DNA of 39,921 nucleotides, taken from IMG/VR virus record IMGVR_UViG_3300035034_001514, positions 1 to 39,921 of that record; one strand, written 5' to 3'. Source of the DNA: a virus. Under the pieces are notes generated by a model. That model was not told the DNA's origin. It ran no database searches and was given only the letters and a program-made list of their open reading frames with translations. Numbering within the stretch: the first letter of the stretch is position 1; every line of letters begins with the position of its first letter. Position numbers and translations under genes: made by a program. Below are positions 29,263 to 39,815 of this stretch, in pieces.

Positions 29263-29282
29263 GTTTTTTGTCTGTGTGTATG

Positions 29283-29638
29283 TGTGGACCCGGTCGGAGT
29301 CGAACCGACGTCCAGTCGTCATTCAATATAAAGTCATTTACAAGTATGTTTGGTCTCTTTCCTACCAACAAAGTCATCAATGAATTTATCGTTATGCATT
29401 GTTTAACGTACCGAACATTTTAATTCTATCGATATTGAATTGTTGTAGAAGTCTTTGGTAAGACCCCAGTTAATTTACACTAACTCTTCTACGGAAGCCC
29501 CTACAAGTGCCATAGCATCTTCGTAGGTAAATTCAGATGTTTCTTCTGCATTTATTTGTTTGTTGATTTTAACGTCCTTTCTAGACGACTTGCACTTTAT
29601 ACCAAATACCACGACTGTCGATTACCAGTTACGGGCCC
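29283..29638 (-). ncRNA. ssrA: Transfer-messenger RNA (tmRNA), one-piece
   Basis: A complete 356-nt tmRNA for ribosome rescue. The 5' GGGCCCG pairs over all 7 bp with 3' CGGGUCC, including the G3-U70 wobble that marks alanine acceptance, with A as discriminator. CCA is not encoded. The T arm is GTCGG-TTCGACT-CCGAC, and the 5' side has the D-loop-like CTGGTAATCGACAG. The tag frame most likely resumes at GCA (29549) and reads AEETSEFTYEDAMALVG, ending VEELV before TAA at 29475: 24 codons. The 3' half has pairing segments expected for pseudoknots. The 5' end begins 4 nt after the stop of the gene at 29643, so it must be cut from a polycistronic transcript, presumably by RNase P. Its length and layout match standard, non-permuted tmRNA. 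Confidence 0.93.
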
Positions 29639-35532: not shown

Positions 35533-36555
35533 TTACAATCCTAACAATTCTTCCATCCGTGTCGTTAGCAAGCTAGAATATACCTTCGGAATGTATTTGT
35601 TCAATGCTTTAGAATCTTCTTTTGTTAGAGGATTTCCATCATTTTCTTCCTTTTCAATATCAGTAATTATTTCATTTCTGAGAAATCTAAGGTCCTTCAT
35701 TTGATATTCTACTTCAAATTCACCGCGTTCATTGATCTTTTCTATCGCATGTTCAATACGAGCAATGGTTACAAACTCACAAAATTCAGAATCAATATCA
35801 GTTATATTTGTTCGCTTTGATCGCTTTGATCGCTTCGTTTGTTCTGAATATCGTTGTGTTTTAAGTTTTATAATGAATCTAGAATTAAATGCCCACAGAG
35901 AAGCAGCGAGTTCACTATCCACTGGCTTTATAACAATACCTTCTATAAAATCAGAATCAGCGACTTCCGACTTCATGGATTCAACATCCATTTTCATTAT
36001 TTCACTAACTGTTTTCTTAGTAGCAACTACTGGAACTCTTGGAACATTAAAATAATCCATCCAATAATATGCATCCCTATGTCTAAGGTAATATCCATCG
36101 TCCTGGCTTGGCTTGTACAGTACATCAAAGTATAGTACTTTCAAACCATCCCAATTATATTTGAACCCACTCTGAAGCCCATTACCACATAATTCACCAA
36201 AGAATACAAAAGAGTCTCCTGTATCATTGTATCTATCCATGCAGTACTTTACAATTTTTCTAATGATAGACTTTGTTGGGTCGTTGATTTTATTCCAATG
36301 AGGATGTGCATCATATCCAACAAACGAATCATTGCCATCCAGCATCAAATAAAAAATATTATTGCGTTGTCCGATAAATGGATCGCCGTGGTCATTGACA
36401 CCGACCCTAAAATTCTCTCCATGTATTTTTTCAGTTGCAATACATTCTAAAGCCATTAACTTTTGTGTAATGGTCAATCCTAACCTTTCACAGGCATGTG
36501 AAAGATTATTTGTATTCATAATTGAATTATACTTCATACCACTTTTTGTTTTCAT
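35533..36555 (-). CDS. RNA ligase, T4 Rnl2 family
   Basis: 340 residues, close to T4 Rnl2 (334). The nucleotidyltransferase motifs are in order: motif I EKIHGENF with nucleophile Lys43, FVFFGELCG (117-124) as motif IIIa/III, EGIVIKP (205-211) as motif IV, and IKLKTQRYSE with Lys230/Lys232 as motif V. The C-terminal 100 residues are helical as in Rnl2. It seals nicked dsRNA ends, for example in tRNA or structured RNA repair after host nuclease attack. A basic linker with three KRS-type repeats follows motif V. The start overlaps the dUTPase stop (ATGA). Confidence 0.9.
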   Translation of the reverse strand: MKTKSGMKYNSIMNTNNLSHACERLGLTITQKLMALECIATEKIHGENFRVGVNDHGDPFIGQRNNIFYLMLDGNDSFVGYDAHPHWNKINDPTKSIIRKIVKYCMDRYNDTGDSFVFFGELCGNGLQSGFKYNWDGLKVLYFDVLYKPSQDDGYYLRHRDAYYWMDYFNVPRVPVVATKKTVSEIMKMDVESMKSEVADSDFIEGIVIKPVDSELAASLWAFNSRFIIKLKTQRYSEQTKRSKRSKRTNITDIDSEFCEFVTIARIEHAIEKINERGEFEVEYQMKDLRFLRNEIITDIEKEENDGNPLTKEDSKALNKYIPKVYSSLLTTRMEELLGL

Positions 36556-38440: not shown

Positions 38441-38581
38441 AATTTGCTGACTTAGTGTTGCACCAGAGTTATCCGTTTGACAGTGATCGTATTTATTCTT
38501 CATGATGTTATACATCTGAATGTCAGTAATACTATGGTATACATAGTACCCATCTTAATGATTCACCACAACGTTTCATTG

Positions 38582-38652
38582 AGCGGAACCCTGGAATCGA
38601 ACCAAGCCCTCCTAACTGGAAGTTAAGCGTATCCCACTGATACCTGTTCCGC
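38582..38652 (-). tRNA. tRNA-Gly (anticodon UCC)
   Basis: 71 nt. Acceptor GCGGAAC/GTTCCGC pairs over 7 bp; D arm GTATC-loop-GATAC; anticodon arm with loop CTTCCAG giving anticodon UCC (reads GGA); T arm CTTGG-TTCGATT-CCAGG. Discriminator U is typical of tRNA-Gly. CCA is not encoded. It lies between the RNA-rich region and the terminator at 38408-38440 and would decode AT-rich phage glycine codons. The fold is complete and clear. Confidence 0.92.
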
Positions 38653-38659
38653 GAGTCAT

Positions 38660-39560
38660 AATTGTTAAAGTGCTGAGATTACACACAACCCATTGTTACC
38701 TTTGTTTCCGTACCGATTCGGTGCGACCCGATCCGTTAAAAACGTATCCACATGCCCAAGCATGTCTAACAACATTACCGCCTTTTTTAAAGTGGGGCTA
38801 TTCACTTGTCATAGTAACCATTCTCGATTATCATCATTCTCCCTGTCTTGCGAACAGTAAGTTCCTGCTAAGGAATTAGATGCAGAGTTCAATCAATTAT
38901 CGTCCGCCTTGCGAGCATCTGATAACCTCCATTCCGTATGGTGAAGGATTAGGCAATTTGATTAATTACTACCGGCGAAGTCTTTGCGTTATGAGTAATA
39001 GTAGGAATTGAACCTACAACCTTTTGTTCCTAATACAAACGCCCAACCATTGAGCATTATTACAGTTTATTAATCTACGGATACGTGCTTCGCCAGCTGC
39101 TCCGTATCCTTTTGAGATACAGAATACAACACGCATCATGCGTTTCAGGCTACCAACCCTACTGTGCCGTGCTTCAAGATTACCGGAGCATATAGGTTAC
39201 ATCCCCTTCATCTTTTGTACTGATTTTCCGCCGTTACACTGGTGATGTTCGGACTTCAATCTACATCTTACTTCATCATAGTTCGTATGTTGGAATTTGT
39301 TAAGTAGAAGTTCCCACTTCGATTTGATTCCCACCGTTGGCCAGAATCTTTATCTTTGTCAAAAGACTTAACAACCATACTTTTCCATTAGTTTCCCCAT
39401 TTCAGAAGAACATCTACCGACAAGATGCGAAGCGTATGCTTGCTTAGATGGACCAAAGTAAACTCTGGCGGGGTAGTGTAGATAACACACCCTTTCAATA
39501 TCTTGCGATATTATATCCTTTATTCCCGAAGGAACCGGACCCCAAACGGCCCGAAATTAC
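38660..39560 (-). ncRNA. Candidate giant structured noncoding RNA (GOLLD/ROOL-like class)
   Basis: About 900 bp with no convincing protein gene and a visibly less AT-rich composition than neighbouring genes. On the minus strand it contains many short perfect hairpins: TTCC-UUCG-GGAA (39523-39534), AATATC-GCAA-GATATT (39497-39512), GAAGT-GGGA-ACTTC (39307-39320), ACATGC-TTGG-GCATGT (38750-38765), CTGT..C-GCAA-G..ACAG (38843-38857), GGATACG/CGTATCC (39079-39109), and a long-range CATCTA/TAGATG pair (39411-39450). UUCG and GNRA loops are signatures of selected RNA structure. It is flanked by a promoter cassette and a terminator and contains tRNA sequences. Large ornate RNAs of the GOLLD and ROOL type are known from phages next to tRNAs. 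Membership in either class is inference; boundaries are approximate. Confidence 0.5.
38993..39064 (-). tRNA. tRNA-like sequence, apparent anticodon UAG, embedded in the structured region
   Basis: 72 nt with D arm GCTC/GGGC, anticodon stem TTTGT/ACAAA enclosing ATTAGGA (anticodon UAG, codon CUA), and a perfect T arm GTAGG-TTCAATT-CCTAC. The acceptor pairs over 6 of 7 positions, with a T-T mismatch at the end and A instead of U at position 8. Leucine tRNAs need a long variable arm, but this one has only 5 bases. It may be an atypical tRNA or a tRNA-like domain of the larger RNA. Confidence 0.55.
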
Positions 39561-39691
39561 ATTATTTTAAAGAACTAAACTTTTGTTTCCCTTTTGTGTA
39601 TATACATATACACTTACTTTAGAAAACATCATTTTTTTTAATGAAGTGTTGGTGAATCGACTATTCAACTACCCTTCGTTTTGTTTGTTAT

Positions 39692-39768
39692 GTGAACTTC
39701 CCACCAACACAAAAACGATTAGTGGGTTTTACGTTCTGTTATTATAATAATACGGCAAATTCTGTTAA
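39692..39768 (-). promoter_or_regulatory. Promoter and stem-loop cassette driving the RNA locus
   Basis: On the minus strand TTAACA (39763-39768) and TATAAT (39741-39746) are 16 bp apart, the best sigma70 match among the class-A cassettes. The conserved AACAGAACGTAAAACCCAC and GGTGGGAAGTTCAC follow, so CCCAC pairs with GTGGG. It lies upstream of the structured region and downstream of the Cys-rich gene. The stretch 39561-39691 contains only AT-rich sequence and a palindrome GTGTATA/TATACAC at 39596-39613; no gene is seen there. Confidence 0.6.
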
Positions 39769-39815
39769 AAGTCAACCCATATTATGTGAAGGTATCGGTA
39801 ATACAATATCTTTGT

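Follow-up and report, generated by a model that had tools for sequence, protein, structure and literature searches.

A hypervariable tRNA-like module in the linker of a clade of phage GOLLD RNAs

Introduction

GOLLD is a class of giant phage RNAs whose expression rises during phage lysis. Cryo-EM of one member, env-38, revealed a hollow homo-14-mer cage with inward linkers, a cage known for env-38 only, and the presence of tRNAs within GOLLD linkers has already been reported by Kretsch et al. (PMC12286853). ROOL RNA is comparable in being a large, ornate, cage-forming phage RNA found near tRNAs, with a disordered inward linker (PMC12286853). A mycobacterial GOLLD gene likewise contains a tRNA-like sequence, a "pseudo-tRNA" not detectably expressed as a tRNA (PMC6582537); that is one case, for which module exchange is undescribed, whereas the present analysis covers 63 distinct modules. 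In a different line of work, phage tRNAs were tested by others and found to counter tRNA-cleaving defences (PMC11555353 and PMC11455837), and changes in their anticodon loops have been read as serving the same end (PMC10264068). The GOLLD class itself is thus already known, and what we add is a hypervariable tRNA-like module that characterizes one of its clades. In the available GOLLD literature we found no description of this hypervariability or of the odd form of the module's acceptor end, CCA end, and anticodon loop, which we consider new, although an earlier report is possible.

Identification of the locus as a GOLLD RNA gene

The window analyzed here is the whole 39,921-nucleotide stretch of the IMG/VR virus record IMGVR_UViG_3300035034_001514, which is probably part of a larger phage genome. 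It carries dCMP deaminase, dUTPase, and RNA ligase genes, and its SbcC-like protein has its nearest relatives, at 38-39% identity, in a 484-kb phage record and in Microcystis phage Mel-JY01. At its right end we find a GOLLD RNA gene of a large tailed phage (Table 1). A search with Rfam cmscan matched the GOLLD model (RF02032), which spans the 3' domain only, over its full length with 161.2 bits (E = 1.4e-43; gathering score, 150), and we regard the identity of the locus as practically certain. Neither a ROOL nor a group I intron match was found in the Rfam scan of the locus at E ≤ 1, and the locus had no blastn match among 50,697 phage records. The first-pass annotation had proposed a giant RNA of the GOLLD or ROOL type or else an undescribed element; the first of these proposals is borne out for GOLLD, and the second is not, as the RNA is a divergent member of the described class. 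Beyond the full-length 3' domain match, it resembles other GOLLDs in having a separate, less conserved 5' domain, a phage location beside tRNAs, and a variable linker able to hold a tRNA. It differs in its score, 161 bits compared with 270-339 for short-linker relatives, and in its 5' domain, which lies outside Rfam and was defined from clade relatives.

Table 1. Coordinates of the GOLLD unit and its parts in the window
Feature	Start	End	Strand	Basis
Promoter-like site TTAACA-16-TATAAT, predicted	39741	39768	-	Consensus scan, 11/12 matches
GOLLD 5' domain, ~600 nt, beyond the Rfam model	39138	39735	-	Homology to relatives and covariation
GOLLD 3' domain, RF02032 positions 1-416	38670	39137	-	Rfam cmscan and covariation in 32 sequences
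5' strand GGCGAAG of 7-bp long-range helix around linker	39088	39094	-	32-sequence covariation alignment
tRNA-like module in GOLLD linker	38993	39064	-	ARAGORN, Rfam tRNA (51.2 bits), tRNA layout fit
3' strand CUUCGCC of 7-bp long-range helix around linker	38974	38980	-	32-sequence covariation alignment
tRNA-Gly(UCC), 7-bp acceptor, downstream of GOLLD within its unit	38581	38652	-	ARAGORN
Intrinsic-terminator-like hairpin, 13-bp stem, 6-nt loop, T-rich tail	38409	38440	-	Hairpin scan

Covariation among relatives, on which the earlier proposal had been made to depend, is present in both domains. For the 3' domain we aligned the window with 31 relatives (32 GOLLDs) and tested a structure composed of the Rfam structure, the tRNA arms, and a 7-bp long-range helix that encloses the linker. 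Changes on both sides were seen at 95 of the 124 pairs, and 81.1% of cells were paired, compared with 37-45% in slid controls; since the tested structure was derived from the window's own Rfam alignment, which gives it some advantage over its slid counterparts, the counts of covarying pairs carry more weight. In the long-range helix 99.6% of cells are paired, and five of the seven pairs show compensatory change. With this strong covariation and the full-length Rfam match, the locus stands beyond chance. Folding energy was uninformative as evidence for the 3' domain (z = 0.04 for the 3' half; -2.5 for the 5' half). The 5' domain aligns with the sequence that immediately precedes the 3' domain in two relatives (L242 and L218), and less strongly with that of many other clade members; in its 3'-most ~320 nt, aligned across 12 sequences, compensatory changes occur at 32 of 50 pairs predicted by RNAalifold.

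The promoter-like site, the 5' domain, the 3' domain, the tRNA-Gly gene, and the terminator form a noncoding unit of about 1.3 kb, followed by the dCMP deaminase gene. Most of what the first-pass annotation had listed for such a unit was recovered: the sigma70-like cassette, which ranks best among 12 sites of the region in the consensus scan (the shuffled region gives a mean of 6.7 promoter-like sites at a looser 9/12 threshold); a stretch of roughly 1 kb devoid of a credible protein, in that about 1.1 kb, from the promoter-like site to 38515, holds no minus-strand ORF of at least 50 aa in an ORF scan; hairpins with GCAA and UUCG caps; a local change in composition (GC, 0.36-0.42 within the locus versus 0.28-0.36 directly downstream); the tRNA-Gly, directly downstream of GOLLD, whose Rfam tRNA score of 23.8 bits lies under the cut-off of 29; and the terminator with its 13-bp stem. 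Its bounds hold from promoter to terminator, except that its edge at 38441 was too short, as the terminator stem reaches 38409. The position of the promoter-like site predicts a transcript start near 39735. The contig end (39825-39921) is occupied by a perfect 45-bp tandem repeat in 2.2 copies; read on the minus strand, it is a cysteine-rich repeat, CDRCYDCEQLEDECE, that ends directly before the promoter-like site, and the contig may have broken within it. The window also contains a tmRNA gene (29282-29638, minus strand; Rfam RF00023, 86.5 bits), for which the predicted tag, AEETSEFTYEDAMALVGASVEELV, is unusual. As L242 and the roseophage loci L316-L319 likewise have tmRNA-family matches near GOLLD, phages with tRNA-type GOLLDs may often carry a tmRNA.

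The linker module has the form of a tRNA with an irregular acceptor end

The tRNA-like sequence that had been noticed inside the RNA proved to be a tRNA-Leu(UAG)-shaped domain within the GOLLD linker, with the anticodon loop AUUAGGA. It forms six of seven acceptor pairs, with a U1-U72 mismatch, and has no encoded CCA, which could be added posttranscriptionally. The short variable arm of a "Leu" module was considered as proof against a tRNA and rejected, as 23 free phage tRNA-Leu genes of the same loci share it.

To place this module in context, about 95 loci of the window's GOLLD clade were gathered by pattern scans of viral contigs and a subsequent profile search, and a tRNA layout was fitted to their linkers with the acceptor stem left out of the fit. 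The clade linker folds almost always as a hypervariable tRNA-like module. Its D, anticodon, and T arms (helices 6-8 of the 32-GOLLD alignment) show compensatory change and are 92-98% paired, whereas its acceptor end is irregular: pairs 1-72 to 7-66 are present in 46, 29, 73, 100, 92, 94, and 98%, respectively, of the 63 distinct modules, compared with 91-96% for every pair among the 760 distinct free tRNAs found in these loci. Anticodon loops of 8 or 9 nt occur in 10 of the 63 (16%), against loops other than 7 nt in 2 of 836 free tRNAs, and CCA is encoded in 1 of 66 modules, against 593 of 836. As the free tRNAs are ARAGORN calls and ARAGORN prefers good stems, these contrasts are somewhat overstated. 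Within the module, the T loop is conserved and the anticodon loop ranks with the most variable segments; even so, U33 is kept in 50 of 53 anticodon loops and a purine at position 37 in 52 of 53, despite the presence of 16 different anticodons among the modules. Two modules (L134 and L221) have the anticodon CUA; if functional as tRNAs, they would decode the stop codon UAG.

These observations bear on whether the linker holds an ordinary phage tRNA gene, excised by RNase P and other enzymes to supplement translation and varying through turnover of the tRNA set. The window's copy, with its 51.2 bits and six acceptor pairs, is better formed than most of its relatives and could itself be a real tRNA; full 7-bp acceptor stems (L204 and L254) and a CCA end (L258) occur in some relatives, and the module anticodons are mostly real sense anticodons. 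Against this stand the open acceptor tip of most relatives, the near-constant lack of CCA, and the enlarged loops, defects almost unseen in the free tRNAs of the same phages. Excision would moreover break an RNA enclosed by a helix, and the mycobacterial GOLLD-internal pseudo-tRNA was without detectable expression (PMC6582537). We therefore judge it unlikely that the linker is an ordinary tRNA gene; as the acceptor end mostly departs from that of a tRNA, few of the modules are likely to take part in translation.

In a few clade members the linker is reduced. Those of L318/L319 (1501-1956), L278, L230, and L241 are without a T arm and have a 5-bp hairpin with a 7-nt loop bearing U33 and purine 37. 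This is suggestive of linkers that keep just the D-like and anticodon-like arms; the anticodon-like arm is absent from the minimum-energy folds of L278, L230, and L241.

Modules differ between otherwise near-identical GOLLDs

Across the clade, module identity is nearly uncoupled from backbone identity. When identical sequences were collapsed, the 63 distinct GOLLDs yielded 13 pairs, all from metagenome assemblies, with at least 95% backbone identity. The anticodon loop, and often the whole module, differs in 10 of the 13, and all other 60-column slices average 0.95-0.99 identity in the same pairs. An earlier count, in which 25 of 28 pairs differed at a backbone identity of ≥90%, was set aside as inflated by collapsed identical linkers. 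Sliding identity plots for L254/L256, L244/L240, and L294/L309 display valleys of about 0.6-0.8 confined to the module, with flanks near 1.0. In two further pairs the change lies mainly in the loop: L309 and L289 are 93-100% identical in each 40-nt bin over about 1.45 kb, with the anticodon loop (AUUUUGA versus AUUGAUAA) as the main difference in their modules, and L227 and L235 have identical module bodies with the loops CUCUUAA and AUUGAAG. The clade loci included no near-identical relative of the window; swapping is consequently seen in its relatives only, and from these we infer module exchange in the window's own lineage.

Downstream of the 3' end of GOLLD in L294, L309, L295, L244, and L240 there is, directly adjoining, a long terminator-like stem (ACUUAUUARAUGAACACA...UGUGUUCUUYUAAUAAGUUUU). 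It is mostly conserved, and its apical part, which varies between near-identical phages, constitutes a second variable spot of these loci.

The pattern of exchange can be set against two further explanations. (i) The module might be structural filler, the linker accepting any compact fold, with tRNA genes as a handy source and variation as neutral exchange. This would fit the disordered linker of the solved GOLLD (PMC12286853), the linkers without a tRNA fold in other GOLLD branches, and the reduced linkers of the window's clade. It fits poorly with the maintenance of three tRNA arms by compensatory change and with a constant U33 and purine 37 beside a varying anticodon, and drift poorly explains loop-only changes in near-identical RNAs. 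The median best identity of modules to free tRNAs is 77%, compared with 86% for free tRNAs among themselves; being less like free tRNAs than these are like each other, the modules are not fresh captures, and recent capture from free phage tRNAs is unsupported. On balance, filler appears improbable. (ii) The anticodon loop might pair with a specific RNA in trans, such as a host tRNA, mRNA, or rRNA, and vary with its target. The variability of the loop beside a conserved T loop would agree with this, as would a ribosome pull-down with GOLLD cited by the authors of PMC12286853; the conservation of U33 and purine 37 is better explained by a tRNA-specific reader than by free pairing, and a candidate target RNA is not known. 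We hold pairing in trans to be very unlikely. Pairing of the loop within GOLLD was also considered and rejected: in near-identical pairs that differ in loop or module, no matching changes were found elsewhere in the RNA, and such pairing is therefore improbable.

A possible role as an exchangeable tRNA mimic

The retention of U33 and purine 37 suggests a partner that reads tRNAs. Our preferred reading, held tentatively and at less than even confidence, is that GOLLD is a cage-forming RNA bearing a tRNA mimic that can be exchanged and that may act as a decoy against host defences targeting tRNAs. By analogy with env-38, 14 copies of GOLLD would probably come together as a hollow cage whose linkers point inward. 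The module would remain in the cage as a mimic, displaying one chosen anticodon arm, and the tRNA-Gly encoded downstream would be set free as an ordinary tRNA. The target would be a host factor that recognizes tRNAs, most plausibly a tRNA-targeting defence nuclease, which might be trapped or distracted, and the diversity of the modules would reflect an arms race. In its most specific form, as an antidefence device whose exchangeable decoy has its anticodon arm under diversifying selection against tRNA-targeting host immunity, this proposal is possible but doubtful. A nuclease may have difficulty gaining access to a module enclosed in a cage.

The modules share with antidefence phage tRNAs (T5 tRNA-Tyr versus retron-Eco7; tRNA-Lys versus PrrC and PARIS) a phage-encoded tRNA shape and changing anticodon loops. 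Those, however, are working replacement tRNAs, whereas the majority of GOLLD modules, having no normal acceptor end, could act only as mimics. A PADLOC scan of ten window proteins identified no defence gene. The RNA ligase of the window (35533-36555, minus strand; Pfam PF09414, PHROG 548) is 27.5% identical to Escherichia phage ligases; as judged from its sequence, it is possibly a tRNA repair enzyme, which would fit with tRNA-cleaving host defences.

GOLLDs in isolated phages and significance

GOLLDs over the Rfam cut-off are present in the isolated phages Phaeobacter phage MD18, DSS3_MAL1, Roseobacter phage DSS3P8, Ruegeria phage vB_RpoS-V10, and Mesorhizobium phage Cp1R7A-A1. The linkers of MD18, DSS3_MAL1, and Cp1R7A-A1 are of the tRNA type; that of DSS3P8 and vB_RpoS-V10, both phages of Ruegeria pomeroyi DSS-3, is reduced and seemingly keeps the anticodon-like arm, and its first hairpin differs between the two (GCC..GGGC versus GUC..GGAC) with pairing preserved. 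Thus, isolated phages with both linker types make the idea testable at the bench.

What GOLLD does has been a question since the class was described, one that the cage structures did not settle, and the variable module offers a testable lead. A module swapped or relettered within an almost invariant cage marks a site of selection and predicts a partner that reads tRNAs.
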